DNA of 64,000 nucleotides from Apostichopus japonicus (taxonomy: Eukaryota; Echinodermata; Holothuroidea; Aspidochirotida; Stichopodidae), in assembly GCF_037975245.1 (NCBI RefSeq), contig NC_092578.1, forward strand, positions 20,230,821-20,294,820, in the 5' to 3' direction. How positions within the stretch are numbered: position 1 is the first letter of the stretch; every line of letters starts with the position of its first letter. The position numbers and the translations under genes are program-made. Below are positions 11,685 to 44,701 of this stretch, piece by piece. The notes beneath the pieces were generated by a model. The model was not told the origin of the DNA, ran no database searches, and worked only from the letters and a program-made list of their open reading frames with translations.

Positions 11685-11756
11685 ATGGGCAAATCCTATG
11701 CCAATTTTATGTGTAAAAAGTTCTTCCACCCTGCTTCATACGACAACATCAAAAGG
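11685..11756 (+). CDS. CIR1: CIR1 coding exon 1
   Basis: 24 codons from ATG, encoding [20 protein letters not shown] then NIKR; this is the Cir_N signature. It ends AGG before a weak donor GTTTGT, phase 0. The ATG matches the human start. Confidence 0.93.
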
Positions 11757-14700
11757 GTTTGTTAATATTCTTATGTTTCTTTAAATTACATGACACTAGT
11801 AGTACTAGTAGGCCTAGTAGTAGTAATACTATACTTAGTACAATAATAGTACACAGGGTTAGTACGCTCCGATCGTACGTTAGGCATGCTGTATTACTAG
11901 TGAATTGTATAGGCAACGGTGTAGGCCTAGCAAGTAGCATATTCCATTCAATATGTGGAGTAACTACAGAATACCCCGCTGGATCTGAGATTGCGGTTTT
12001 GACGGAGACGAACAACGTCCAACGCAGTCTTATATTGTGCTTGAGTAGATGGCGCTATTAATGTAGTTTTAAGATGATTGGACTTTTTGGATTTTTTCTG
12101 TTTTTTCGAATGTACAATGCATATAGCCTACTTGTAAAACGGGGTATAATCAACGGAGTACGTGGTCCGTTTTTGTTTCTGTTGCCAACGAACCAACAGG
12201 CTATGCAGTCATTCTGTAAAGGAAAGTAAAGCCTGAAGATGTGGGGTGACATCCAACGGGAACATGGGGATCTGTGGTGACATCCAACGGGCTACTGGGT
12301 CGAGCTTTAATTGTTTTAAGTAAGGCCGTGGCTATTCTTACGACGAGTCGTAACAATTATTTATAAACTATTCTTACGACAAAGGCAAATTCAAGCGCAG
12401 TAAAGTAAATAAAGCAATTGCGCATGTAGTAGGGGTAACCCTAAACATAACCCTAAATCTCAATCCTAACCCTTACCCTAACCCTAACCGGAAATTATTG
12501 TTTCTCCTCGTCGTAAAAATAGTACTCCTGGTCATGAAAATAGCAACTGCGCATGCGTAGTCGGGAATTATTCTTACGACTAGTCGTAACAATAGCCACT
12601 TTGTTTAAGTAAACCCAACGGGCTACGAAGTCAGAAGTGGTGGAATGGGGGTTGAAGTTTTTAGTGGCGACGAACCAACGGGCTGCGAAGTCAGAAGTTG
12701 TGGAATGGGGGTTGAAGAATTTAGTGGCTATAACCCTAACCCTAAATTTAACCCCTAACCCTAAATTTGGAAGAATTCATTGGCTACGAGCCAACGGGCT
12801 ACGAAGTCATTCTTTATAGTAAAGTATACACATGTTTCCGTAAATAAGTTAATGCTATCTATCACTTATCCACTTTTACCTCGTAGCCCGTAGCACCTAT
12901 TTTGGTTAAGTTTCAATAATGCGGGGTATTCGACAGCTATGCCCAATATGTTAAAGTTAGGGACGCCATTTCCAAACAAGGGGACATTGCATATATACAT
13001 GGTAAGAATATCTATCATTAGACAAAAGCAGAGAAACAAGATATGACTCATCTAGGTCTACTGTTTTAGAAAATATAATGGAATTTGCAAGTATGACGCT
13101 AGATAAGTGTGACTGGCACTAGTAGTACTAGTAGTAATGGAATTAGTACCAAATGGTTTATTTCTTACCAATTCCATCAGTGCCACTCACAGTCACACTT
13201 AATATACAGTAGCATAATAATTTCATTGTGTTACATTTTGTACTTTTCATTCCACTGCCAAGTATTGCTGATGAAGGTCCCAGGGGGACCAAACTTTCTT
13301 TTTTCTTGGCCTATAGAAATCTAGCAAAAGAATGTAATAAAAAAATATATTGTGTAAAAGTAAGTTGGCCTGTCGTTTCGATCCTAACAGGATCTTCTTC
13401 ATAGGCTTAATGACAAAAATATATTATTATGGCCTTCCGTTCCCCTTGTTATATGTTTACCTGATTTAATGTATGTCAGACCCCAAAGAGGAGGACCGAG
13501 TGCTTATAAATATGCCGGACTGTCTGGACATCTGGCCAGCCTACAATGATGACTTAGTATGTTTGTAAAATTGATTTCTACTCACATTTAGGTTGCCATG
13601 TAGTGGCTTGTGGAGAATATGGGAATCAGTTTTATATACATAATTATAAGGATATAGTTGATGATATGGCCTTGTTACTAGCTAGTTAACACTATCTAGT
13701 TACTGTACATCTAGCCTATGCCCTATCAAGTATCATGTTGGAGTCAGACTCAAATTGGTGACACTCTAGAGGCAATATGATGTGTTGTAAGTAGCTCCAT
13801 GACTGATCTCAATTTCTTTAACTGAAACTGTGGAAAGTAAAGTTGTAGCAACATGTCCATGAAAATCATTTTGTTCGTGTGGGCTGTGCTCCCATTTTTG
13901 TAAGTCAAATTGTAACCATTTTTGAACGCAGTATTAATCCACCCAGTCCCAATGAAAATGTCAATAATTTGTGGAAGATGGGAAGAATTCAAACTTATAT
14001 TTAATCCATTCACCAGAATTAATGTATGGCATGAACTATGGGCACATTCCTGTCCTTGTAGAGAAAAAATCATACAAAGGGACAACACATTGTTGACTAA
14101 TACTCAAAAATAACCCTCAGATCTTTATTTTAAAACTTTGAGAAGCATTTCTTTGATGAATGGCTTTTCTATGTCACTAACTGTCACAGGATTTGATCGC
14201 TGCTCTTAGCCATGAGGGTGTTTGACTTCTACTAATGACCATGCTTCATTGACTTCAGAAGGGTGGTACCTTGCAGTGATCAAGTTATCTGGAACTTTTT
14301 TCTGATGTTACTTGACTTAAGAAACATTTATCTCAGTTGCTCATAACAATCAAGTGTTTGAATATATTTGATCTTATTTGACAAGGAATCGAAAAGCCTT
14401 CTGGCTTTCTGGTTTGAACTTCCTGCTTGACAAAACAACTGACAAGTTACTGTTTTGTTTGAGAAAGAACTGTGCATTAGAAGGTAAAAAGTCTACAAGT
14501 AAACTGCAGGTATTTGTTGCATTAGTTGGTAAGCCCATATTGCTTAAATGATAATCAGATTGGTACCGTTTGACAGTACATATCATCAAAATGAGTTTAT
14601 TCATTACTTTTATCAGGTATGGATGGCTCAACAGAGAACAGATGCAGAAAAATCCAGACAGGAATCACTCAGATCAGAATATGAAAGAGAGCAAGAAACT

Positions 14701-17700
14701 TATGTCAATAGGTATTTGTTGTTGTTTTCTTCCTTTTAAACAAGATATTTCAAAAGGTGCAGCTTTGTTGAACGTGCTTGTTGATTTGTATATCCAATCT
14801 GGTGAGTATTACAACAGTATTGAGTCTTAACATTGGATGAGATTAAAGCTCATTTAAAGTCAGCAGATGTCAAAGTCTGAAAACTTGCAAACACGACAAC
14901 TGCAGGAGTAAAGCTTGTATGAACATGGTACTCAGTAAGCAGATCCAGTGTAGTAAGTCTTTCTGATATCTGGGCGAACTGGTGGTTGCCTAGTTCCTGT
15001 TGGAATCCTCTCATACTTATTTCCCAGTCTGATTCATGCTGACCGTCCAACTGCAGGAGTAAAGCTTGTATGAACATGGTACTCAGTAAGCAGATCCAGT
15101 GTAGTAAGTCTTTCTGATATCTGGGCGAACTGGTGGTTGTCTACTTTCTGTTGGAATCCTCTCATACTTATTACCCAGTCTGATTCATGCTGACCGTCCA
15201 ACTGCAGGAGTAAAGCTTGTATGAACATGGTACTCAGTAAGCAGATCCAGTGTAGTAAGTCTTTCTGATATCTGGGCGAACTGGTGGTTGTCTAGTTCCT
15301 GTTGGAATCCTCTCATACTTATTACCCAGTCTGAATCATGCTGACCGTCCAACTGCAGGAGTAAAGCTTGTATGAACATGGTACTCAGTAAGCAGATCCA
15401 GTGTAGTAAGTCTTTCTGATATCTGGGCGAACTGGTGGTTGTCTAGTTCCTGTTGGAATCCTCTCATACTTATTTCCCAGTCTGAATCATGCTGACCGTC
15501 CAACTGCAACAGTAAAGCTTGTATGAACATGGTACTCAGTAAGCAGATCCAGTGTAGTAAGTCTTTCTGATATCTGGGCGAACTGGTGGTTGTCTAGTTC
15601 CTGTTGGAATCCTCTCATACTTATTACCCAGTCTGAATCATGCTGACCGTCCAACTGCAACAGTAAAGCTTGTATGAACATGGTACTCAGTAAGCAGATC
15701 CAGTGTAGTAAGTCTTTCTGATATCTGGGCGAACTGGTGGTTGTCTAGTTCCTGTTGGAATCCTCTCATACTTATTACCCAGTCTGAATCATGCTGACCG
15801 TCCAACTGCAGGAGTAAAGCTTGTATGAACATGGTACTCAGTAAGCAGATCCAGTGTAGTAAGTCTTTCTGATATCTGGGCGAACTGGTGGTTGTCTAGT
15901 TCCTATTGGAATCCTCTCATACTTATTACCTAGTCTGAATCATGCTGACCGTCCAACTGCAGGAGTAAAGCTTGTATGAACATGGTACTCAGTAAGCAGA
16001 TCCAGTGTAGTAAGTCTTTCTGATATCTGGGCGAACTGGTGGTTGTCTAGTTCCTGTTGGAATCCTCTCATACTTATTACCCAGTCTGAATCATGCTGAC
16101 CGTCCAACTGCAGGAGTAAAGCTTGTATGAACATGGTACTCAGTAAGCAGATCCAGTGTAGTAAGTCTTTCTGATATCTGGGCGAACTGGTGGTTGTCTA
16201 GTTCCTATTGGAATCCTCTCATACTTATTACCTAGTCTGAATCATGCTGACCGTCCAACTGCAGGAGTAAAGCTTGTATGAACATGGTACTCAGTAAGCA
16301 GATCCAGTGTAGTAAGTCTTTCTGATATCTGGGCGAACTGGTGGTTGTCTAGTTCCTGTTGGAATCCTCTCATACTTATTTCCCAGTCTGAATCATGCTG
16401 ACCGTCCAACTGCAACAGTAAAGCTTGTATGAACATGGTACTCAGTAAGCAGATCCAGTGTAGTAAGTCTTTCTGATATCTGGGCAAACTGGTGGTTGTC
16501 TAGTTCCTGTTGGAATCCTCTCATACTTATTACCCAGTCTGAATCATGCTGACTGTCCAACTGCAACAGTAAAGCTTGTATGAACATGGTACTCAGTAAG
16601 CAGATCCAGTGTAGTAAGTCTTTCTGATATCTGGGCGAACTGGTGGTTGTCTAGTTCCTGTTGGAATCCTCTCATACTTATTTCCCAGTCTGAATCATGC
16701 TGACCGTCCAACTGCAGGAGTAAAGCTTGTATGAACATGGTACTCAGTAAGCAGATCCAGTGTAGTAAGTCTTTCTGATATCTGGGCGAACTGGTGGTTG
16801 TCTAGTTCCTGTTGGAATCCTCTCATACTTATTTCCCAGTCTGATTCATGCTGACCGTCCAACTGCAGGAGTAAAGCTTGTATGAACATGGTACTCAGTA
16901 AGCAGATCCAGTGTAGTAAGTCTTTCTGATATCTGGGCGAACTGGTGGTTGTCTAGTTCCTGTTGGAATCCTCTCATACTTATTTCCCAGTCTGATTCAT
17001 GCTGACCGTCCAACTGCAGGAGTAAAGCTTGTATGAACATGGTACTCAGTAAGCAGATCCAGTGTAGTAAGTCTTTCTGATATCTGGGCGAACTGGTGGT
17101 TGTCTAGTTCCTGTTGGAATCCTCTCATACTTATTTCCCAGTCTGAATCATGCTGACCGTCTTGTCTCTTATTTCTTTAAATCTGAGGCACCAAAACTAT
17201 TTTGAATTTTTCATCAAGTTGTGATGCACTTTCTACTGATTGTATGAAAAACTTTGTCATCTGTCCTGATATGGACAAAAAGAGTTATACTTACCTTCAA
17301 CAAATAAAACAATTTCCACAGTCCAGTTCCACAAAACCAACAAATCACAAAATGCTGCCACAAACTACAAATATTCTTCTTACCGAACACCCAGAGAGTA
17401 CAAAATCAAAATTTAAACTTGTATGAAGATAAAATGGGTCACATTTACCTAACCATCCTGGTTATGATATACTTGTATGCCACATAATTAAACCTTCGTG
17501 GCTATGATTTACTAGGTCACATGATTAAACTTTTCTTGCTTTGATTTACTAGATACTAAGTTAAGCTGCAGTGAACCTCATACTCTGAATGTGCAGCCTA
17601 GGTAGTAAGTACAAGAACTGTATTGTTTCTTGAAGGGGCCAATTTCAGTATAGGTCAAATGTCTGAAAGCATTTAAACATGACCTCAAAGTAAAGCTTGG

Positions 17701-20700
17701 ATGAACCTAGTAATTTTCTGTTGGTGAATATATTTGGGTCAACTTCAGTTCAGGTAAGTCTGAAATGCTCTTGAAAGTTTCTGAGGGGCTCAATATTCCA
17801 TACACATTAGGTCTGAAATGCTCTTGAACGTTTCTGAGGGGCTCAATATTCCATACACATTAGGTCTGAAATGCTCTTGAACATTTCTGAGGGGCTCAAT
17901 ATTCCATACACATTAGGTCTGAAATGCTCTTGAACGTTTGTGAGGGGCTCAATATTCCATACACATTAGGTCTGAAATGCTCTTGAACGTTTGTGAGGGG
18001 GCTCAATGTACCATACACTTTAGGTCTGAAATGCTCTTGAATGTTTTTGAGGGACTCAATGTACCGTACACATTTGGTCTGCAATGCTCTTGAACAGTGA
18101 ATACAGTCAGTCAGAAGATGAAAATCTGTTTCCTCTATATATTGGAACAGCATCCAGTAGGAAGACTGTTTTCTCTATATATTGGAACAACATTCTGTAG
18201 GAAAGTCCGGTTTTCTCTATATATTGGAACAGCATTCTGTAGGAAAAAGTCCGGTTTTCTCTATATATTGGAACAGCATTCTGTAGGAAGATTGTTTTCT
18301 CTATATATTGGAACAGCATCCAGTTTGGAAGACTGTTTTCTCGATATATTAAAACAGTTAGCATTAAAATTGTTTATTGGAAAAGTGGAAATCTCTGATC
18401 TCTCTGGTTCTCACTTTATTTTTGCACAAATTTAACATAGCTTGCTCTGTCATGACAAGTCCATTGCACAGGATACAAAGCCTTCTGGCTTTCTGGATGT
18501 TTTGTGTAGTTAGTTCCCTTGAATGAAATAGATTCAGTAAAGCTAAAAGGAGAAATGCAGAAAATTAAGATGAAGTGTTCAGAAGGTTCCAGATCAGAAT
18601 TACGCAAGCTAACCTTATTCATATGTACAGTTCATAATAATGGAATGCAGTGTCATGCATGAAATAACTCATATGTATAGGAAACCTGAAACTGATATGT
18701 CTGTCTGCATGTCTGTCTCCAAGGTTACATTGTTAACAATTACATTTACTCTCTTTTAATTCTACTAAGACAACTTATGGGTGATGAAAAGGTCAAACAT
18801 GGTCTGACCTTTATGTACGAACCTCCAAAAGGATTCAAGTCAGAGGAGAAGGACAAAGATGGAGAGCCGGAGTACAAATTTGAATGGCAGCGAGTGGCAC
18901 CTAGAGAGGGTTATGCCAAAAATATGGACGTTACTGATCAACCGTTTGGCATTGCTGTTAGGAAGGTGAAATGCATTCGTTGTCACAATTGGGGGCATGT
19001 CAACACAGACAGAGAGGTAATAGTATTTTATGTGACTCCATACAATTACAAAGTAAGGGCATGTCAACACAGACAGAGAGGTAATAGTATTTTATGTGAC
19101 TCCATACAATTACAAATTAAGGGCATGTCAACACAGACAGAGAGGTAATAGTATTTTATGTGACTCCATACAATTACAAATTAAGGGCATGTCAACACAG
19201 ACAGAGAGGTAATAGTATTTTATGTGACTCCATACAATTACAAATTAAGGGCATGTCAACACAGACAGAGAGGTAATAGTATTTTATGTGACTCCATACA
19301 ATTACAAAGTAAGGGCATGTCAACACAGACAGAGAGGTAATTATAGTATTTTATGTGTCTCCATACAATTACAAAGTAAGGGCATGTCAACACAGACAGA
19401 GAGGTAATTATAGTATTTTATGTGTCTCCATACAATTACAAAGTCAGGGCATGTCAACACAGACAGAGAGGTAATTATAGTATTTTATGTGTCTCCATAC
19501 AATTACAAAGTCAGGGCATGTCAACACAGACAGAGAGGTAATAGTATTTTATGTGACTCCATACAATTACAAAGTCAGGGCATGTCAACACAGACAGAGA
19601 GGTAATAGTATTTTATGTGACTCCATACAATTACAAAGTCAGGGCATGTCAACACAGACAGAGAGGTAATAGTATTTTATGTGACTCCATACAATTACAA
19701 AGTAAGGGCATGTCAACACAGACAGAGAGGTAAGAGTATTTTATGTGACTCCATACAATTACAAAGTCAGGGCATGTCAACACAGACAGAGAGGTAAGAG
19801 TATTTTATGTGACTCCATACAATTACAAAGTCAGGGCATGTCAACACAGACAGAGAGGTAATAGTATTTTATGTGACTCCATACATTACAAAGTCAGGGC
19901 ATGTCAACACAGACAGAGAGGTAATAGTATTTTATGTGACTCCATACAATTACAAAGTCAGGGCATGTCAACACAGACAGAGAGGTAAGAGTATTTTATG
20001 TGACTCCATACAATTACAAAGTCAGGGCATGTCAACACAGACAGAGAGGTAATAGTATTTTATGTGACTCCATACAATTACAAAGTCAGGGCATGTCAAC
20101 ACAGACAGAGAGGTAATAGTATTTTATGTGACTCCATACAATTACAAATTAAGGGCATGTCAACACAGACAGAGAGGTAATAGTATTTTATGTGACTCCA
20201 TACAATTACAAAGTAAGGGCATGTCAACACAGACAGATAGGTAATAGTATTTTATGTGTCTCCATACAATTACAAAGTCAGGGCATGTCAACACAGACAG
20301 AGAGGTAATTATAGTATTTTATGTGACTCCATACAATTACAAAGTCAGGGCATGTCAACACAGACAGAGAGGTTATAGTATTTTATGTGTCTCCATACAA
20401 TTACAAAGTCAGGGCATGTCAACACAGACAGAGAGGTAATAGTATTTTATGTGACTCCATACAATTACAAAGTCAGGGCATGTCAACACATACAGAGAGG
20501 TAATAGTATTTTATGTGACTCCATACAATTACAAAGTCAGGGCATGTCAACACAGACAGAGAGGTAAGAGTGTTTTATGTGACTCCATACAATTACAAAG
20601 TCAGGGCATGTCAACACAGACAGAGAGGTAAGAGTATTTTATGTGACTCCATACATTACAAAGTCAGGGCATGTCAACACAGACAGAGAGGTAAGAGTAT

Positions 20701-23700
20701 TTTATGTGACTCCATACATTACAAAGTCAGGGCATGTCAACACAGACAGAGAGGTAAGAGTATTTTATGTGACTCCATACAATTACAAAGTCAGGGCATG
20801 TCAACACAGACAGAGAGGTAAGAGTATTTTATGTGACTCAATACAATTACAAAGTCAGGGCATGTCAACACAGACAGAGAGGTAAGAGTATTTTATGTGA
20901 CTCCATACAATTACAAAGTCAGGGCATGTCAACACAGACAGAGAGGTAAGAGTATTTTATGTGACTCCATACAATTACAAAGTCAGGGCATGTCAACACA
21001 GACAGAGAGGTAAGAGTATTTTATGTGTCTCCATGCAATTACAAAGTAAGGGCATGTCAACACAGACAGAGAGGTAATAGTATTTTATGTGACTCCATGC
21101 AATTACAAAGTCAGGGCATGTCAACACAGACAGAGAGGTAATAGTATTTTATGTGACTCCATACAATTACAAAGTCAGGGCATGTCAACACAGACAGAGA
21201 GGTAATAGTATTTTATGTGACTCCATACAATTACAAAGTCAGGGCATGTCAACACAGACAGAGAGGTAAGAGTACTTTATGTGTCTCCATACAATTACAA
21301 AGTCAGGGCATGTCAACACAGACAGAGAGGTAAGAGTACTTTATGTGACTCCATACAATTACAAAGTCAGGGCATGTCAACACAGACAGAGAGGTAAGAG
21401 TACTTTATGTGTCTCCATACAATTACAAAGTCAGGGCATGTCAACACAGACAGAGAGGTAAGAGTATTTTATGTGTCTCCATACAATTACAAAGTCAGGG
21501 CATGTCAACACAGACAGAGAGGTAAGAGTATTTTATGTGACTCCATACAATTACAAAGTCAGGGCATGTCAACACAGACAGAGAGGTAATAGTATTTTAT
21601 GTGTCTCCATACAATTACAAAGTCAGGGCATGTCAACACAGACAGAGAGGTAATAGTATTTTATGTGACTCCATACAATTACAAAGTCAGGGCATGTCAA
21701 CACAGACAGAGAGGTAATAGTATTTTATGTGACTCCATACAATTACAAAGTCAGGGCATGTCAACACAGACAGAGAGGTAATAGTATTTTATGTGACTCC
21801 ATACAATTACAAAGTCAGGGCATGTCAACACAGACAGAGAGGTAATAGTATTTTATGTGACTCCATACAATTACAAAGTCAGGGCATGTCAACACAGACA
21901 GAGAGGTAATAGTATTTTATGTGACTCCATACAATTACAAAGTAAGGGCATGTCAACACAGACAGAGAGGTAAGAGTATTTTATGTGTCTCCATACAATT
22001 ACAAAGTAAGGGCATGTCAACACAGACAGAGAGGTAATAGTATTTTATGTGACTCCATAAGGTTGATATATAATGGTGGCAAACCATTACACCTGAAATC
22101 ATTGGTGATCCAGCCTTAACCTCACTCATACCAATTTGCACATGAGAATTTTATCTGAGTAAGCCTTTTTTCTGGTAATTTCCATGTACAGTTGATACAG
22201 CTTTGTGATTAGGACTAAGGGATATGTCTGAATATTAATGGTACTGTGTTATCACTGGGCATGGTCTGCTTGAGAGAGTGTTCTTTGCTGTACTTCAAAT
22301 GACCAAGGTATTAACCTCTTTTCATTTAGTGTCCATTGTTCAACAACAACAAGGATGAGTCTATTTCAGGTCCAAGCACAGACAAGTCAGAGCTTTTGGA
22401 GGATATGAGACGGGATGGTTATGTCCTGAAGCAAAATGTCCTGGACAGGAAGGTGGACCATGGCTCCAAAAACCAGGTAAGTGTGTTAAATAATATTAGT
22501 CTGGGATATCAAAAGTCATTTGTGGTCAGTAAAGGCTGACAGAGGTCATAAAACTTTGTAAACTAGACAACTCCAAGGGAAACTTTTGATGAACGTCATA
22601 AATGGTATGTGGAACCTAATTTGGGAGCACAAGTGTGTCAATGTTGAATCATGAGATGCTGCACAAGGTGGAACAGTGGTTGAAGTAGAGTCCCACAAAG
22701 AATGATTTGTGTTAGAGCAGTAATAGAGTTTAGTCATTGTCAATCCTTGATCTTGAGTAGCAGAAGATGTTCTTAATCATACATGCTTTGCATTTGTCTG
22801 TAGCAAATTATTCCCAGTGATGAGGAGGAAGTACCAGAGACTGCTTTCCTGAAATCTCTTTCAACCAAGGATAAAAAGAAATTGCTCAAGTAAGTGATGA
22901 ATTGAGGATGATTGAACAATGCTTGTGAGTAGGCCTGAGTCGGATACCCAGGTACCCGACCGAACATTCGGGTACCCGAATCGAAAACACGCAATACGGA
23001 ACATTAATTTCATGAAATAACTTTCTTGTAGTGTAGGTGGTTGTTTTAATTACTATTACAAATTTTAGCCATTCTTAATTTTTTTTTTTTCGTGTGTGTG
23101 GATGAAATCACTCACCACAAAATTTTCCATTAAATTAGTGTGGTGTTAGGCTACCATGTGGTCGAAGACAGCAGCAATATTGAAAGTATTCCATGGATAT
23201 TTAAGTTCCAGCTAATTGCGTCACAATTGAGCAAATAAACAGATGGTTAGGCTAGATTTCCACATTAAGTTAGTGTATTGTTAGGCTACCATGTGATCGA
23301 AGATAGCGGCAATAATGAAAGTATTCCATGGATATTTTAGTTCCAGCTACTGCGTCACAATTTTAACGAATAAACAGATGGTTAGGCTAGATTTCCCCAT
23401 TCACTTAGTGTGGTGTTATGCTACCATGTGGTCAAAGATAGCAGCAATAACGAAAGGATTCGGTGAATATTTTTAGTGCTCGCTAACTGCGACACAATTT
23501 GGTCGAATAAAGAGATGGTTAGGCTAGATTTTCATGTTGGCTCTTTGTGATTTTAGGCTACCATGTGGTCAGAGATTTGTGGGGATTTTATGCAAACATA
23601 ATTTGTGGAGTGCACTTGTCTTTGTTGTCATCAAGCAGCTAGCTCTGGTAGTCCATAGCAACTGCTTTCCTCTCATAGTTGTAGCTATTGTATACGCTCG

Positions 23701-25499
23701 TGTATCCGTAAATATTGAGATTCTCAAAATTATTATTTTTTCATATTTCATAGCAGGAAAGACTGGCAAGAAAATTTATGGGGATGTTAAGATGGATTAT
23801 AGAAGGGATAACCAAAAAAAAATAATCGCAAGTGGCTTTTTACTAAATGTTTATTCCTAATGCAATGAATCGCCCCGCAGTCACAGCCATAATGTCTGTT
23901 TAATTCAAGTTGAGAGCTGAAATTAATTATAGGAAATCCTGTCTTGGCAACTTTTGACATGCAGGATTTTAAATCAAATTGTGGGTATCGTGCAATCACG
24001 CGGCTAATGCAAACCCCGGATCGTAGTAAAAGAAACAGTCGGAACTATTTTTTTTTTTTATATTTCATTTTGCATTTGTATTATTATACATCAAAACATG
24101 ACATTCAGTTGTTCATAACAACAGGAGTATGAAAATGTATAAATCGGAGGTGTAATGTAAGGTGGCATACTGATCTGCCATTTACACACATTTTGTTTGG
24201 CTAGTTACGCAATTTTTCTTGATTGTTGGGTTTGGAGTTTCAGGTACCTGTTACCCGACCCGCTAACAATAATGGGTACCCGGTTCCAATTTTTTGCTAC
24301 CAGACTCAGGCCTACTTGTGAGTAAGTTGTTTGAAATATTACTGTACATTGGTTATGTGGAAGGTATTTCTGGAGCATGTGTTCAGTTATTAGCAATGGT
24401 TTGGTTACAACAAATTGAAATTGTTGTGACAATATCTGTTCCAGAGTTGTTTTCTTTTGACCTTTCAATCAAGTAAGCAAATGCTCTATTCTTTTATGTA
24501 TTTTGCTGTCACAAGAAACCTGAAAGCACCACAGACTAAAGTTGCCCTCTGAGGAAGTTTAATATTATATATATTTATGGTATTAGATTGTATGTTTTAT
24601 ATTATATATATTTATGGTATTAGATTGTATGTTTTATATTATATATATTTATGGTATTAGATTGTATGTTTTTGTTTTACTGCAGAAAGTTAAATGAGAT
24701 GGAAAAGCCAAATGATTTGAGAAAAAGGAAGAAGAATAAGATACGACAGCATCCATCGTCAGATGATAACAGTGATGATTTTCGTGGCAAGGAGCCAGAA
24801 AGAAAAAAGAAGAAGTCAAAGAGACAACCTTCATCTAGTGATGATTCAGACAGCTCCGAAGATGAAAGGAGACAAAGGAAAGAAAATCTAAAGAGGAAAA
24901 TGAAAAAGATGCAGAACAGCAAAAAGATGCAAAAATATTCCACATCTGCTGATGAGGGGTCATCATCTGAAGTAGCAGAAAATGGGAGAGTTGGATCAGG
25001 AGAGAGAAGGAGGGGTGATAGAAGAACCAATACAAGAAGAGACAGTGAAGATAGTGTATTGTCAAAGGGAGCCAGACCCAAGAGTGGTACTTACAGGATG
25101 AAATATGAAGAAAGGGGGAATGAGCATAGAGAGAGAAAGAGAAGAGAGAGAAGCAGAGGCAGGAGACACAGAGACAGTATTAATGAATATTCATCTGATG
25201 AAAGTCAAAGGGAGGAGGAGGATCAAGGGTACAAGAAAGGTAGGAGGGTTGCTGAAAAGAAGCAAAGAGATGGAAGTAGGGAGAGTCATTCTGAAGAGAA
25301 TGATAAGTATAGGAGGAATGGAGAGGAGCAGAGTTATGCCTCTAAGAGGGGTAGGAGACAGGGGTATGTTTCACCTCAAGACGAAAGAAGGGATAGGCAG
25401 AGCAAGGATTTGAATGGAAGAAAGGACCAAAGGAGAGATGGGTACATTAAGGAGAAAAAGAGAGACAGGAGCAGGGAGAGAGGAGAAAGACACAGATAG
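11685..25499 (+). CDS. CIR1: CIR1, RBPJ/CBF1-interacting corepressor, complete
   Basis: Six coding exons: 11685-11756, 14617-14711, 18770-19016, 22330-22476, 22804-22889 and 24686-25499; 1461 nt, 486 aa plus TAG, all junctions in phase. The N-terminus [20 protein letters not shown], the block [18 protein letters not shown], the zinc knuckle [16 protein letters not shown] (Cys124, Cys127, His132, Cys139) and [17 protein letters not shown] match human CIR1 (450 aa) in order. The C-terminal 270 aa are Lys/Arg/Ser/Glu-rich with RS- and RE-like runs. In vertebrates CIR1 bridges RBPJ to SAP30/HDAC corepressors in the nucleus and is reported to bind PAP-1 and affect splicing. The introns are loaded with tandem arrays. 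Intron 3 starts with a minisatellite built from the end of exon 3. No canonical poly(A) signal was noted in the first 400 nt after the stop. Confidence 0.95.
12251..12327 (+). repeat. CCAACGGG repeat, outlying copies
   Basis: Two copies of GTGACATCCAACGGG about 33 bp apart, related to the better array at 12612-12805 on the other side of the MITE. Confidence 0.5.
12328..12599. mobile_element. 272-bp hairpin MITE with CCCTAA-rich interior
   Basis: Inverted ends of about 30 bp: GTGGCTATTCTTACGACGAG on the left and, in complement, GTGGCTATTGTTACGACTAG on the right. The right arm contains the palindrome TTACGACTAGTCGTAA. The interior at 12430-12490 is CCCTAACCCTAA-like, resembling the metazoan telomere repeat. 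Near-identical flanks GTTTTAAGTAA and GTTTAAGTAA lie just outside. It sits in CIR1 intron 1. Superfamily unknown. Confidence 0.8.
12612..12805 (+). repeat. ~56-bp tandem repeat with CCAACGGGCTACGAAGTC motif
   Basis: Two good units and one diverged unit, separated by another CCCTAACCCTAAATTT stretch at about 12728-12770. Intron 1 of CIR1. Confidence 0.7.
13105..13201. repeat. Foldback repeat
   Basis: AGTGTGACTGGCACTAG near 13107 and TGCCACTCACAGTCACACT near 13182 are inverted copies, with GGAATT/AATTCC also pairing inside. This gives a hairpin of about 95 bp, probably a small MITE. Confidence 0.65.
13268..13406. other. Pair of hammerhead-ribozyme-like motifs (retroelement remnant)
   Basis: Plus strand 13268-13294: CTGATGA, then a GGTCCC/GGGACC stem and AAAC. 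Minus strand 13367-13406: a CTATGAAGAA core side, a GATCCT/AGGATC stem, GAAAC and GACAGGCC. Both resemble minimal type I hammerheads carried by Penelope-like elements and retrozymes. Both cores are imperfect, so activity is doubtful. Located in CIR1 intron 1. Confidence 0.45.
14617..14711 (+). CDS. CIR1: CIR1 coding exon 2
   Basis: 95 nt, encoding [20 protein letters not shown] then [11 protein letters not shown] and two bases of Arg. Acceptor TTACTTTTATCAG; donor GTATTTG. The block aligns with human VWMAEQK...ESYDNR. Confidence 0.94.
14900..17160. repeat. Minisatellite, 151-bp unit, 15 copies, in CIR1 intron 2
   Basis: Each unit starts CTGCAGGAGTAAAGCTTGTA (or CTGCAACAG...) and ends near GAATCATGCTGACCGTCCAA. 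The period is exactly 151 bp and copies differ at only a few sites. A rarer variant (TTCCTATTGG with CCTAGTCTG) occurs twice, 302 bp apart, pointing to two-unit duplication. The first unit's left side continues into a dispersed repeat also seen at 55440-56430. A 64-codon minus-strand frame recurs in each unit, but the period is not a multiple of three, so this is not a repeat protein. Confidence 0.97.
17757..18092 (+). repeat. 53-bp tandem repeat, about 6 copies
   Basis: Unit GTCTGAAATGCTCTTGAACG, then TTTCTGAGGGGCTCAATATT and CCATACACATTAG; spacing 53 bp between the first copies. Intron 2 of CIR1. Confidence 0.95.
18126..18358 (+). repeat. ~40-bp tandem repeat, 6 copies
   Basis: Unit TTTTCTCTATATATTGGAAC, then AGCATTCTGTAGGAAGA, 38 to 46 bp long. 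It is rich in pyrimidines followed by AG words, but it lies more than 400 nt from the exon 3 acceptor. Confidence 0.93.
18770..19016 (+). CDS. CIR1: CIR1 coding exon 3 (first three zinc-knuckle ligands)
   Basis: 247 nt. Acceptor CTCTTTTAATTCTACTAAG; encodes [19 protein letters not shown] through [15 protein letters not shown] and ends GAG before GTAATA. The fourth zinc ligand (Cys139) is the first codon of exon 4. The last 24 nt, GGGCATGTCAACACAGACAG then AGAG, are the first copy of the minisatellite in the next entry. Confidence 0.95.
18993..22060 (+). repeat. 64-bp minisatellite made of the exon 3 end plus 5' splice site, ~48 copies
   Basis: The period is 64 bp; a few units are 63 or 67 bp. 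Each unit is GGGCATGTCAACACAGACAG, AGAG, then GTAATAG or GTAAGAG, then about 33 bp ending in ATTACAAAGTCA. The first unit starts at 18993 inside exon 3, so the exon's last 24 nt and its authentic donor are unit 1. I count about 48 unit starts, the last near 22010. Roughly 18 units carry GTAAGA instead of GTAATA, and one (near 20372) has GTTATA. End units share GTAA variants with unit 1, while the middle is more uniform. Read-through from exon 3 adds 43 codons and stops at 19146-19148. Confidence 0.97.
22330..22476 (+). CDS. CIR1: CIR1 coding exon 4
   Basis: 49 codons, phase 0 on both sides. It starts TGT (last zinc-knuckle Cys) after TTTTCATTTAG and encodes [20 protein letters not shown] then [26 protein letters not shown] donor. 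Aligns with human CPLF...ELIAEMRNSGFALKRNVLGR. Confidence 0.95.
22804..22889 (+). CDS. CIR1: CIR1 coding exon 5
   Basis: 86 nt encoding [20 protein letters not shown] then TKDKKKLLK; donor GTAAGT after CTCAA. Matches the EGEEDPEVEFLKSLTTKQKQ region of human CIR1. Confidence 0.95.
22930..24314. mobile_element. hAT-type element family D in CIR1 intron 5 (8-bp TSD)
   Basis: A 1385-bp element with ends TAGGCCTGAGTCGG and CCAGACTCAGGCCTA, flanked by the perfect duplication CTTGTGAG (22922-22929 and 24315-24322). The sub-terminal regions contain GGTACCCG words. About 23138-23560 consists of four ~120-bp repeats starting TTAGGCTACCATGTGGTC. I see no transposase; the longest frames are short and unlike a DDE or BED domain. 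Non-autonomous. Confidence 0.85.
24559..24671. repeat. 37-bp tandem repeat, 3 copies
   Basis: TATTATATATATTTATGGTA then TTAGATTGTATGTTT, period 37, ending just before the CIR1 exon 6 acceptor. It places TGTTTTT-type pyrimidines close to that splice site. Confidence 0.95.
24686..25499 (+). CDS. CIR1: CIR1 terminal coding exon 6 (basic, RS-like tail)
   Basis: 814 nt. Acceptor TTTTGTTTTACTGCAG; begins [18 protein letters not shown] and ends RGERHR before TAG. It is dominated by Lys, Arg, Ser and Glu, with clusters such as [17 protein letters not shown]. The human tail has the same character. The minus-strand frames across it are shadows of purine-rich codons. Confidence 0.94.
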
Positions 25500-32404: not shown

Positions 32405-35400
32405 AGAAAGTATATAGACTGTTCTGTTGCTGCTATTCAGAATAGAGAGATCACCTAATAACTATGTGAGAGACAAGTATATAGACTCTGTTGCTGCTAT
32501 TCAGAATAGAAAGATCACCTAATAACTATGTGAGAGACAAGTATATAGACTGTGTTGCTGCTATTCAGAATAGAAAGATCACCTAATAACTATGTGAGAG
32601 ACAAGTATATAGACTGTTGCTGCTATTCAGAATAGAAAGATCACCTAATAACTATGTGAGAGACAAGTATATAGACTCTGTTGCTGCTATTCAGAATAGA
32701 AAGATCACCTAATAACTATGTGAGAGACAAGTATATAGACCCTGTTGCTGCTATTCAGAATAGAGAGATCACCTAATAACTATGTGAGAGACAAGTATAT
32801 AGACTCTGTTGCTGCTATTCAGAATAGAAAGATCACCTAATAACTATGTGAGAGACAAGTATATAGACTGTTCTGTTGCTGCTATTCAGAATAGAAAGAT
32901 CACCTAATAACTATGTGAGAGACAAGTATATAGACTCTGTTGCTGCTATTCAGAATAGAAAGATCACCTAATAACTATGTGAGAGACAAGTATATAGACT
33001 GTTCTGTTGCTGCTATTCAGAATAGAGAGATCACCTAATAACTATGTGAGAGACAAGTATATAGACTCTGTTGCTGCTATTCAGAATAGAAAGATCACCT
33101 AATAACTATGTGAGAGACAAGTATATAGACTCTGTTGCTGCTATTCAGAATAGAAAGATCACCTAATCACTATGTGGGAGACAAGTATATAGACTCTGTT
33201 GCTGCTATTCAGAATAGAAAGATCACCTAATAACTATGTGAGAGACAAGTATATAGACTGTTCTGTTGCTGCTATTCAGAATAGAAAGATCACCTAATAA
33301 CTATGTGAGAGACAAGTATATAGACTGTTCTGTTGCTGCTATTCAGCATAGAAAGATCACCTAATAACTATGTGAGAGATAAGTATAAAGACTGTTCTGT
33401 TGCTGCTATTCAGCATAGAAAGATCACCTAATAACTATGTGAGAGACAAGTATATAGACTCTGTTGCTGCTATTCAGAATAGAAAGATCACCTAATAACT
33501 ATGTGAGAGACAAGTATATAGACTCTGTTGCTGCTATTCAGAATAGAAAGATCACCTAATAACTATGTGAGAGACAAGTATATAGACTGTTCTGTTGCTG
33601 CTATTCAGAATAGAAAGATCACCTAATCACTATGTGAGAGACAAGTATATAGACTGTTCTGTTTCTGCTATTCAGAATAGAAAGATCACCTAATAACTAT
33701 GTGAGAGACAAGTATATAGACTGTTCTGTTGCTGCTATTCAGAATAGAAAGATCACCTAATCACTATGTGGGAGACAAGTATATAGACTCTGTTGCTGCT
33801 ATTCAGAATAGAAAGATCACCTAATAACTATGTGAGAGACAAGTATATAGACTGTTCTGTTGCTGCTATTCAGAATAGAAAGATCACCTAATAACTATGT
33901 GAGAGACAAGTATATAGACTGTTCTGTTGCTGCTATTCAGCATAGAAAGATCACCTAATAACTATGTGAGAGATAAGTATAAAGACTGTTCTGTTGCTGC
34001 TATTCAGCATAGAAAGATCACCTAATAACTATGTGAGAGACAAGTATATAGACTCTGTTGCTGCTATTCAGAATAGAAAGATCACCTAATAACTATGTGA
34101 GAGACAAGTATATAGACTCTGTTGCTGCTATTCAGAATAGAAAGATCACCTAATAACTATGTGAGAGACAAGTATATAGACTGTTCTGTTGCTGCTATTC
34201 AGAATAGAAAGATCACCTAATCACTATGTGAGAGACAAGTATATAGACTGTTCTGTTTCTGCTATTCAGAATAGAAAGATCACCTAATAACTATGTGAGA
34301 GACAAGTATATAGACTGTTCTGTTGCTGCTATTCAGAATAGAAAGATCACCTAATCACTATGTGAGAGACAAGTATATAGACTGTTCTGTTGCTGCTATT
34401 CAGAATAGAAAGATCACCTAATCACTATGTGAGAGACAAGTAAATAGACTCTGTTGCTGCTATTCAGAATAGAAAGATCACCTAATAACTATGTGAGAGA
34501 CAAGTATATAGACCCTGTTGCTGCTATTCAGAATAGAAAGATCACCTAATAACTATGTGAGAGACAAGTATATAGACCCTGTTGCTGCTATTCAGAATAG
34601 AAAGATCACCTAATAACTATGTGAGAGACAAGTATATAGACCCTGTTGCTGCTATTCAGAATAGAAAGATCACCTAATAACTATGTGAGAGACAAGTATA
34701 TAGACTGTTCTGTTGCTGCTATTCAGAATAGAAAGATCACCAAATCACTATGTGAGAGACAAGTATATAGACTGTTCTGTTGCTGCTATTCAGAATAGAA
34801 AGATCACCTAATAACTATGTGAGAGACAAGTATATAGACTCTGTTGCTGCTATTCAGAATAGAAAGATCACCTAATAACTATGTGAGAGACAAGTATATA
34901 GACCCTGTTGCTGCTATTCAGAATAGAAAGATCACCTAATAACTATGTGAGAGACAAGTATATAGACCCTGTTGCTGCTATTCAGAATAGAAAGATCACC
35001 TAATAACTATGTGAGAGACAAGTATATAGACTCTGTTGCTGCTATTCAGAATAGAAAGATCACCTAATAACTATGTGAGAGACAAGTATATAGACTCTGT
35101 TGCTGCTATTCAGAATAGAAAGATCACCTAATAACTATGTGAGAGACAAGTATATAGACCCTGTTGCTGCTATTCAGAATAGAAAGATCACCTAATAACT
35201 ATGTGAGAGACAAGTATATAGACCCTGTTGCTGCTATTCAGAATAGAAAGATCACCTAATAACTATGTGAGAGACAAGTATATAGACTGTTCTGTTGCTG
35301 CTATTCAGCATAGAAAGATCACCTAATAACTATGTGAGAGATAAGTATATAGACTGTTCTGTTGCTGCTATTCAGCATAGAAAGATCACCTAATAACTAT

Positions 35401-38400
35401 GTGAGAGACAAGTATATAGACCCTGTTGCTGCTATTCAGAATAGAAAGATCACCTAATAACTATGTGAGAGACAAGTATATAGACCCTGTTGCTGCTATT
35501 CAGAATAGAAAGATCACCTAATAACTATGTGAGAGACAAGTATATAGACTGTTCTGTTGCTGCTATTCAGAATAGAAAGATCACCTAATAACTATGTGAG
35601 AGACAAGTATATAGACTCTGTTGCTGCTATTCAGAATAGAAAGATCACCTAATAACTATGTGAGAGACAAGTATATAGACCCTGTTGCTGCTATTCAGAA
35701 TAGAAAGATCACCTAATAACTATGTGAGAGACAAGTATATAGACTGTTCTGTTGCTGCTATTCAGAATAGAAAGATCACCAAATCACTATGTGAGAGACA
35801 AGTATATAGACTGTTCTGTTGCTGCTATTCAGAATAGAAAGATCACCTAATAACTATGTGAGAGACAAGTATATAGACTCTGTTGCTGCTATTCAGAATA
35901 GAAAGATCACCTAATAACTATGTGAGAGACAAGTATATAGACCCTGTTGCTGCTATTCAGAATAGAAAGATCACCTAATAACTATGTGAGAGACAAGTAT
36001 ATAGACCCTGTTGCTGCTATTCAGAATAGAAAGATCACCTAATAACTATGTGAGAGACAAGTATATAGACTCTGTTGCTGCTATTCAGAATAGAAAGATC
36101 ACCTAATAACTATGTGAGAGACAAGTATATAGACTCTGTTGCTGCTATTCAGAATAGAAAGATCACCTAATAACTATGTGAGAGACAAGTATATAGACCC
36201 TGTTGCTGCTATTCAGAATAGAAAGATCACCTAATAACTATGTGAGAGACAAGTATATAGACCCTGTTGCTGCTATTCAGAATAGAAAGATCACCTAATA
36301 ACTATGTGAGAGACAAGTATATAGACTGTTCTGTTGCTGCTATTCAGCATAGAAAGATCACCTAATAACTATGTGAGAGATAAGTATATAGACTGTTCTG
36401 TTGCTGCTATTCAGCATAGAAAGATCACCTAATAACTATGTGAGAGACAAGTATATAGACCCTGTTGCTGCTATTCAGAATAGAAAGATCACCTAATAAC
36501 TATGTGAGAGACAAGTATATAGACCCTGTTGCTGCTATTCAGAATAGAAAGATCACCTAATAACTATGTGAGAGACAAGTATATAGACTGTTCTGTTGCT
36601 GCTATTCAGAATAGAAAGATCACCTAATAACTATGTGAGAGACAAGTATATAGACTCTGTTGCTGCTATTCAGAATAGAAAGATCACCTAATCACTATGT
36701 GAGAGACAAGTATATAGACTGTTCTGTTGCTGCTATTCAGAATAGAAAGATCACCTAATCACTATGTGAGAGACAAGTATATAGACTGTTCTGTTGCTGC
36801 TATTCAGAATAGAAAGATCACCTAATAACTATGTGAGAGACAAGTATATAGACCCTGTTGCTGCTATTCAGAATAGAAAGATCACCTAATAACTATGTGA
36901 GAGACAAGTATATAGACCCTGTTGCTGCTATTCAGAATAGAAAGATCACCTAATAACTATGTGAGAGACAAGTATATAGACCCTGTTGCTGCTATTCAGA
37001 ATAGAAAGATCACCTAATAACTATGTGAGAGACAAGTATATAGACCCTGTGGCTGCTATTCAGAATAGAAAGATCACCTAATAACTATGTGAGAGACAAG
37101 TATATAGACCCTGTTGCTGCTATTCAGAATAGAAAGATCACCTAATAACTATGTGAGAGATAAGTATATAGACTGTTCTGTTGCTGCTATTCAGCATAGA
37201 AAGATCACCTAATAACTATGTGAGAGACAAGTATATAGACTCTGTTGCTGCTATTCAGAATAGAAAGATCACCTAATAACTATGTGAGAGACAAGTATAT
37301 AGACTCTGTTGCTGCTATTCAGAATAGAAAGATCACCTAATCACTATGTGAGAGACAAGTATATAGACTGTTCTGTTGCTGCTATTCAGAATAGAGAGAT
37401 CACCTAATCACTATGTGAGAGACAAGTATATAGACTCTGTTGCTGCTATTCAGAATAGAAAGATCACCTAATCACTATGTGAGAGACAAGTATATAGACT
37501 GTTCTGTTGCTGCTATTCAGAATAGAAAGATCACCTAATAACTATGTGAGAGACAAGTATATAGACTGTTCTGTTGCTGCTATTCAGAATAGAAAGATCA
37601 CCTAATAACTATGTGAGAGACAAGTATATAGACTCTGTTGCTGCTATTCAGAATAGAAAGATCACCTAATCACTATGTGAGAGACAAGTATATAGACTGT
37701 TCTGTTGCTGCTATTCAGAATAGAAAGATCACCTAATCACTATGTGAGAGACAAGTAAATAGACTCTGTTGCTGCTATTCAGAATAGAAAGATCACCTAA
37801 TAACTATGTGAGAGACAAGTATATAGACCCTGTTGCTGCTATTCAGAATAGAAAGATCACCTAATAACTATGTGAGAGACAAGTATATAGACCCTGTTGC
37901 TGCTATTCAGAATAGAAAGATCACCTAATAACTATGTGAGAGACAAGTATATAGACCCTGTTGCTGCTATTCAGAATAGAAAGATCACCTAATAACTATG
38001 TGAGAGACAAGTATATAGACCCTGTTGCTGCTATTCAGAATAGAAAGATCACCTAATCACTATGTGAGAGACAAGTATATAGACTGTTCTGTTGCTGCTA
38101 TTCAGAATAGAAAGATCACCTAATCACTATGTGAGAGACAAGTATATAGACTGTTCTGTTGCTGCTATTCAGAATAGAAAGATCACCTAATAACTATGTG
38201 AGAGACAAGTATATAGACCCTGTTGCTGCTATTCAGAATAGAAAGATCACCTAATAACTATGTGAGAGACAAGTATATAGACCCTGTTGCTGCTATTCAG
38301 AATAGAAAGATCACCTAATAACTATGTGAGAGACAAGTATATAGACTCTGTTGCTGCTATTCAGAATAGAAAGATCACCTAATCACTATGTGAGAGACAA

Positions 38401-39830
38401 GTATATAGACTGTTCTGTTGCTGCTATTCAGAATAGAAAGATCACCTAATCACTATGTGAGAGACAAGTAAATAGACTCTGTTGCTGCTATTCAGAATAG
38501 AAAGATCACCTAATAACTATGTGAGAGACAAGTATATAGACCCTGTTGCTGCTATTCAGAATAGAAAGATCACCTAATAACTATGTGAGAGACAAGTATA
38601 TAGACCCTGTTGCTGCTATTCAGAATAGAAAGATCACCTAATAACTATGTGAGAGACAAGTATATAGACTCTGTTGCTGCTATTCAGAATAGAAAGATCA
38701 CCTAATAACTATGTGAGAGACAAGTATATAGACCCTGTTGCTGCTATTCAGAATAGAAAGATCACCTAATCACTATGTGAGAGACAAGTATATAGACTGT
38801 TCTGTTGCTGCTATTCAGAATAGAAAGATCACCTAATAACTATGTGAGAGACAAGTATATAGACTGTTCTGTTGCTGCTATTCAGAATAGAAAGATCACC
38901 TAATAACTATGTGAGAGACAAGTATATAGACCCTGTTGCTGCTATTCAGAATAGAAAGATCACCTAATAACTATGTGAGAGACAAGTATATAGACCCTGT
39001 TGCTGCTATTCAGAATAGAAAGATCACCTAATAACTATGTGAGAGACAAGTATATAGACTCTGTTGCTGCTATTCAGAATAGAAAGATCACCTAATAACT
39101 ATGTGAGAGACAAGTATATAGACTCTGTTGCTGCTATTCAGAATAGAAAGATCACCTAATAACTATGTGAGAGACAAGTATATAGACTGTTCTGTTGCTG
39201 CTATTCAGAATAGAAAGATCACCTAATAACTATGTGAGAGACAAGTATATAGACCCTGTTGCTGCTATTCAGAATAGAAAGATCACCTAATAACTATGTG
39301 AGAGACAAGTATATAGACTCTGTTGCTGCTATTCAGAATAGAAAGATCACCTAATAACTATGTGAGAGACAAGTATATAGACTCTGTTGCTGCTATTCAG
39401 AATAGAAAGATCACCTAATAACTATGTGAGAGACAAGTATATAGACCCTGTTGCTGCTATTCAGAATAGAGAGATCACCTAATAACTATGTGAGAGACAA
39501 GTATATAGACTCTGTTGCTGCTATTCAGAATAGAAAGATCACCTAATCACTATGTGAGAGACAAGTATTTAGACTGTTCTGTTGCTGCTATTCAGAATAG
39601 AAAGATCACCTAATAACTATGTGAGAGACAAGTATATAGACCCTGTTGCTGCTATTCAGAATAGAGAGATCACCTAATAACTATGTGAGAGACAAGTATA
39701 TAGACTCTGTTGCTGCTATTCAGAATAGAAAGATCACCTAATCACTATGTGAGAGACAAGTATATAGACTGTTCTGTTGCTGCTATTCAGAATAGAGAGA
39801 TCACCTAATATATTAGGTGATCTCTCTGTG
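32405..39830. repeat. 7.4-kb minisatellite, 64/67-bp units, ~113 copies
   Basis: Unit: GTTGCTGCTATTCAGAATAG, AAAGATCACCTAATAACTAT, GTGAGAGACAAGTATATAGA, then CTCT, CCCT or CTGTTCT. The last choice makes 64- or 67-bp units. CTATTCAGAATAG is a 6-bp-arm palindrome, broken in CAGCATAG variants. Rare variants recur at fixed distances: ATAAGTATAAAG and CTGTTTCTGC both at 594 bp; CACCAAATCAC and AGATAAGTATATAG both at 1039 bp. These show nested multi-unit duplications. No frame crosses the array. Confidence 0.98.
39794..39827. repeat. Perfect 34-bp palindrome at the array edge
   Basis: The centre lies between 39810 and 39811. The left arm AGAGAGATCACCTAATA is the array unit, and the right arm is its exact complement. 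The sequence then resumes with TGTGAGAGACATAT, a decayed unit in the original orientation. Confidence 0.95.

Positions 39831-40446: not shown

Positions 40447-44701
<4,255 letters not shown>

Follow-up and report, generated by a model that had tools for sequence, protein, structure and literature searches.

The CIR1 gene

The window analysed is a stretch of 64,000 nt from Apostichopus japonicus (C18:20230821-20294820; assembly of 671.6 Mb in 35 contigs). Six coding exons with GT/AG introns were found on its plus strand, which join into an open frame of 486 codons (Table 1). The assignment of this gene to CIR1 in a preliminary description of the DNA was confirmed: the protein has a Pfam Cir_N match (E 2e-12, 47.5 bits versus a curated cut-off of 22.6), and its residues 1-234, the part searched of the 486, could be aligned at E 1e-81 with human CIR1 (residues 1-244 of chain 6zym_9, also 8i0w). 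CWC25, named a pre-mRNA-splicing factor, is present in those PDB entries too, which are spliceosome complexes, and matches residues 1-234 more weakly (E 4.6e-6); judged by these alignments, the protein is nearer to human CIR1 than to the related CWC25. Since the CIR1 chain shares PDB entries with this splicing factor, CIR1 can be regarded as a splicing protein, a claim of the preliminary description that is thereby supported.

The gene model also agrees with the earlier placement of the end of exon 3, which falls inside a motif presumably of the CCHC zinc-knuckle-like kind, and of the start of exon 4. The human CIR1 alignment crosses the exon 3/4 junction (HVNTDRE-CPLF) and continues through it, and the first donor is thus the one that yields the conserved protein. 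When the 671.6-Mb genome was searched with 131 aa of exons 3-4, four candidates were scored and two matched, both of them exons of this same gene. The search was also meant to detect a processed copy, from which the spliced form could be read, and only the gene itself matched; by the exons 3-4 search, CIR1 is single copy and without a retrocopy. Literature searches on CIR1 or on competing donors turned up no direct evidence on CIR1 splicing.

Table 1. Coordinates of CIR1 and of the tandem repeats in its introns (positions in the window)
Feature	Position	Strand	Basis
CIR1 coding exon 1, donor AGG|GTTTGT	11685..11756	+	gene model, PDB alignment
CIR1 coding exon 2 (VWMAQQR...), donor TAG|GTATTT	14617..14711	+	gene model, PDB alignment
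Minisatellite, intron 2/5, 151 bp x 15	14897-17161		TRF
Minisatellite, intron 2/5, 53 bp x 6.4	17758-18095		TRF
Minisatellite, intron 2/5, 40 bp x 5.6	18126-18357		TRF
CIR1 coding exon 3, end inside CCHC zinc-knuckle-like motif (presumed)	18770..19016	+	gene model, PDB alignment
64-bp minisatellite, 48 units of exon 3 end, donor and intron, last unit truncated	18993..22059	+	TRF, unit splitting
CIR1 intron 3, 3313 nt, mostly array	19017..22329	+	gene model
Span from first to last GTAAGA unit (units 12, 13, 16, 25-32, 36-40, 47; 17/48)	19706..22009	+	predicted U1 pairing
CIR1 coding exon 4 (CPLFNNN...), donor CAG|GTAAGT	22330..22476	+	gene model, PDB alignment
CIR1 coding exon 5, donor CAA|GTAAGT	22804..22889	+	gene model, PDB alignment
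Minisatellite, intron 2/5, 135 bp x 3.3	23128-23570		TRF
Minisatellite, intron 2/5, 37 bp x 3.1	24557-24672		TRF
CIR1 coding exon 6, K/R/S/E-rich tail and stop	24686..25499	+	gene model

A minisatellite across the exon 3/intron 3 boundary

Tandem repeat analysis with TRF revealed a minisatellite with a period of 64, 47.8 copies, 97% matches and a score of 5627, far beyond chance. It begins 24 nt upstream of the end of coding exon 3, that is, inside the exon, as the preliminary description had stated. Cut at the unit start, the array gave 48 units, 40 of 64 nt, four of 67 nt, three of 63 nt and one truncated; the earlier count of about 48 exon-end/donor junctions lying head to tail, with the real one first, was therefore correct. 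Unit 1 is the real, productive exon 3/intron 3 junction, and the truncated unit 48 starts at 22010 and breaks off after 26 intronic nt, followed by single-copy intron. Each unit is made up of the last 24 nt of exon 3, a 5′ splice site and about 40 nt of intron (39-43). The exonic part, GGGCATGTCAACACAGACAGAGAG, codes for GHVNTDRE as previously read, with single-base differences in units 20 and 24, but the intronic part had been put too short at about 35 nt. The array is thus a tandem repeat of many copies with a unit in the range of about 10-100 nt, and all 48 units contain exon sequence and a splice site of a real gene, as in minisatellites or VNTRs across an exon-intron boundary; the copy number given here is that of one assembly. 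The 14 nt joining the units read CAATTACAAAGTAA in unit 1; four exact searches of the window with short parts of this sequence gave no match outside the array.

The 47 internal unit boundaries read CAG|GG in 35 cases and AAG|GG in 12, so that each unit also bears a weak acceptor-like AG. The units could on this account be imagined as a ladder of 23-nt exons (AG|GGCATG...GAG|GT), of which, among one to six, three and six would preserve the reading frame, adding repeats to the zinc-knuckle-like motif. We regard this as extremely improbable in spite of the CAG|GG at 35/47 boundaries, as the pyrimidine content ahead of the unit AGs is 0.41-0.53 versus 0.71-0.82 at five real acceptors, and splicing from one unit to the next would have to remove introns of a mere 41 nt or so.

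Variation among units

Column variability was determined over 47 full units, leaving out the truncated unit 48, and the 3-nt insertion of four units was not counted as a column. Variable columns numbered 2 of 24 in the exonic part and 10 of 40 in the intronic part (P 0.18), and columns with a variant in at least two units 0/24 and 7/40, respectively (P 0.039). The longest run free of shared variants was 29 columns, for which permutation of the shared-variant columns gave P 0.14. These data give a faint hint that the exonic parts are more conserved than the intronic parts, at best marginally.

Small sequence differences tag many of the units. Seven variable features formed 16 distinct combinations in the 47 units, in clustered patterns, and 8 of the 21 feature pairs were found with all four combinations; both observations point to exchange between units. 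They bear as well on the question of misassembly, either of the copy number or of the whole array, which has to be considered because long near-identical arrays are difficult to assemble. With 16 clustered combinations over 47 units, a window that has no N, and many unrelated arrays on the same contig, an artefact of this kind is very unlikely.

Donor variants and predicted U1 pairing

GT is kept in all 48 units. The donor reads GAG|GTAATA in 25 of them, the real one included, GAG|GTAAGA in 17, GAG|GTAATT in four, TAG|GTAATA in one and GAG|GTTATA in one; the preliminary description had given GAG|GTAATA throughout, which holds for 25/48 units and not for the other 23. In a simple duplex model that ignores modified U1 bases and proteins, the predicted U1 energies were -6.7 kcal/mol for GAG|GTAATA, -9.6 for GAG|GTAAGA, -6.7 for GAG|GTAATT, -6.5 for TAG|GTAATA and -4.2 for GAG|GTTATA. 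For the 17 GTAAGA copies the model therefore predicts stronger U1 pairing than for the real GTAATA donor. A predicted energy at least as good as that of the first donor was obtained for 46 of the 48 array donors in 3.07 kb, versus 11 of the 706 GT sites present in 9.4 kb taken from elsewhere in the gene region.

U1 telescripting offers one mechanism by which such a row of donor-like sites might be of use, raising local U1 occupancy and so helping the rather weak real donor or keeping the 3.3-kb intron from being cleaved and polyadenylated prematurely. The density of good predicted donors given above speaks for such a U1 platform, but the units carry no clear signal of selection, and we hold this explanation to be quite unlikely.

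Local RNA folding was considered as a reason for use of the first donor and was rejected: accessibility did not single out donor 1, whose rank was inconsistent between folding windows (32/48 with a window of 150, 8/48 with a window of 240).

Predicted consequences of donor choice

When each donor was joined to exon 4 and translated, the frame was kept for the first of the 48 only. Splicing from the 47 downstream donors is predicted to lead to a stop within the array in 45 cases and in exon 4 in two, in every case with 154 nt or more between the stop and the last junction, and by the usual 50-nt rule nonsense-mediated decay (NMD) of these products is expected. Skipping of exon 3 or retention of intron 3 is also predicted to terminate the frame early.

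The preliminary description had proposed a bank of decoy donors, a U1 sink or a slow or poison-splicing switch for CIR1 itself. Such an arrangement could serve as a poison-splicing switch, in which, with high CIR1 or U1 activity, the downstream decoys and especially the 17 GTAAGA donors would compete for splicing and yield out-of-frame mRNA, making CIR1 self-limiting. The premature stop predicted for all 47 downstream donors, the U1 energy of -9.6 versus -6.7 kcal/mol for the real donor in 17 of them, and the presence of CIR1 in PDB entries with CWC25 are all consistent with this. However, a 64-nt unit with a stop in one frame would produce the out-of-frame outcome without any selection, and the copied exon parts are without clear constraint; a switch of this type is thus an unlikely explanation of the array. 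We give the same low credence to the array being a copy-number-tuned attenuator, whose 47 decoys would drain CIR1 transcripts into nonproductive mRNA in a fraction that responds to U1 or CIR1 activity. If that were true, repeat length would set the level of a splicing factor.

Tandem repeats elsewhere in the genome

The array background was taken from a non-random sample, 217 kb without N in total. Twenty stretches, each 10 kb long, lay along C18, seven within the final 400 kb of that contig, and four more, each of 5 kb, were drawn from other contigs. Seventeen arrays with a unit of at least 20 nt and at least five copies were found in 11 of the 24 stretches, occupying 10.7% of bases. None was found in the four 5-kb stretches of other contigs, and the array density is hence a figure for C18. 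The window is denser, with 25% of its bases in arrays (at least five copies, unit of at least 10 nt). Were the C18 sample typical, there would be about 78 arrays per Mb, and several hundred seeds would be expected to overlap a donor by chance, prior to any selection; this rough upper estimate assumes 150,000 introns and uses the median unit of 49 nt.

Exon edges were surveyed at 20 of 108 RRM matches, drawn from the better-scoring ones. TRF (period at least 10) reported repeats in 4 of the 20 stretches, with one of the 20 flagged for an A-rich stretch, intronic by its look, no more than 30 nt from the exon match; one 32-bp array of 6.5 copies begins about 60 nt past a donor. An array across a junction was found in none of the 20 sampled RRM exons (the sequence was inspected for three of the four stretches with repeats, and the repeat in the fourth lies more than 400 nt from the exon match), which indicates that spanning of a junction is not common. 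In CIR1 itself, introns 2 and 5 contain six other tandem repeats, and the 37-bp repeat stops 14 nt short of the first base of exon 6.

Further arrays were observed in and near the window. Downstream of CIR1, at 32408-39810, a 64-bp unit is repeated about 114 times (7.4 kb), with the period of the exon 3 array and a different consensus. A 42-bp minisatellite of about 14.6 copies occupies positions 1-630 of the window, from the first base on, and most of C18:20330001-20340000, which lies roughly 53-63 kb short of the contig end, is taken up by about 121 copies of a 67-bp unit. C18 is 20,392,820 nt long and the window lies 98-162 kb from its end; no TTAGGG was found in the last 10 kb, and the contig end is therefore not shown as a telomere.

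Comparison with known repeats and tandem donors

The nearest known case is the 31-bp VNTR of human CBS. It lies at the exon 13/intron 13 boundary and, according to a review, goes with lower activity when repeats are more numerous (PMC5188458, PMC1395315). The CBS VNTR is like the CIR1 array in being a tandem repeat that runs over the end of an exon into the intron behind it, and differs in that the review calls it non-coding, whereas the exon part of the CIR1 array is conserved coding sequence. The CIR1 array also has the larger unit, 64 bp in 48 copies, more than are known from CBS, and the gene that carries it codes for a splicing protein. The units of the CBS VNTR are reported to carry alternative donors used in alternative splicing.

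Tandem duplication over splice junctions has been described as a route to new introns (PMC4974935). There too a junction-crossing tandem duplication copies splicing signals, but in that case one duplication over intron 1/exon 2 gave a new intron, whereas in CIR1 the 48 exon-end/donor copies all sit within a single intron. Tandem alternative donors 4 nt apart form another comparison, in which the alternative choice is often predicted to cause a frameshift and NMD (PMC2423196). The likeness lies in competing donors in a row whose alternatives have these predicted outcomes; the donors of that study are overlapping pairs 4 nt apart, whereas those of CIR1 belong to 48 full junctions spaced about 64 nt in a minisatellite. 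Judged by titles and the starts of abstracts, none of the papers found on minisatellites with donor sites or on exon-intron VNTRs describes this locus or kind. With the CBS VNTR and junction-crossing tandem duplications (PMC4974935) as precedents, the kind is already known, and the CIR1 array is a further member in which conserved coding sequence is repeated and the host gene encodes a splicing protein.

Origin and significance of the array

The array is probably the result of a neutral, accidental expansion in which the first donor has remained dominant, with at most a small leak that depends on copy number. A tandem duplication that happened to cover the exon 3/intron 3 junction would have been the seed, and unequal exchange would have expanded it into intron 3 without selection for a new function. 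Donor 1, the first to be transcribed and the one at the end of exon 3, would serve nearly all CIR1 mRNA, and the 47 copies would mostly be ignored; at most a small leak would give out-of-frame mRNAs, to be destroyed by NMD. Such a leak would be expected to rise with copy number, in line with what is reported for the human CBS repeat. We favour the neutral expansion because C18 stretches and introns 2 and 5 of CIR1 are rich in arrays, units mix, exonic constraint is weak, CBS provides a precedent, the exons 3-4 search matched one locus only, and donor 1 leads through an open frame to the conserved protein. It is weakened by the 0/20 RRM exons crossed by an array, the lack of arrays in the four stretches of other contigs, the shared variants in 0/24 exonic columns (P 0.039) and the GT in all 48 units.

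The choice of 5′ splice site among near-identical sites has been studied mostly with two-site minigenes. The locus lines up 48 nearly identical junctions one after another within a conserved gene and is a natural experiment on this choice, for which strength, nearness to the acceptor and order of transcription are candidate determinants. Choice by strength alone predicts use of unit 12 or a later one, nearness to the acceptor predicts unit 48, and a first-come rule predicts unit 1. If the leak scales with copy number, it would show a neutral repeat turning into an expression dial, comparable to what the review reports on human CBS activity.

Other features of the window

A scan of the window for tRNA genes found none. 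ORFs on the minus strand at 40447-44000 belong to a neighbouring gene, which resembles a secernin gene. Only one of four pieces of this gene gave a weak Pfam Peptidase_C69 match (E 0.024, below the cut-off), and a PDB search with one piece gave no match. Since human CIR1 and SCRN3 are neighbours, the position of CIR1 beside a secernin-like gene may represent an old synteny.
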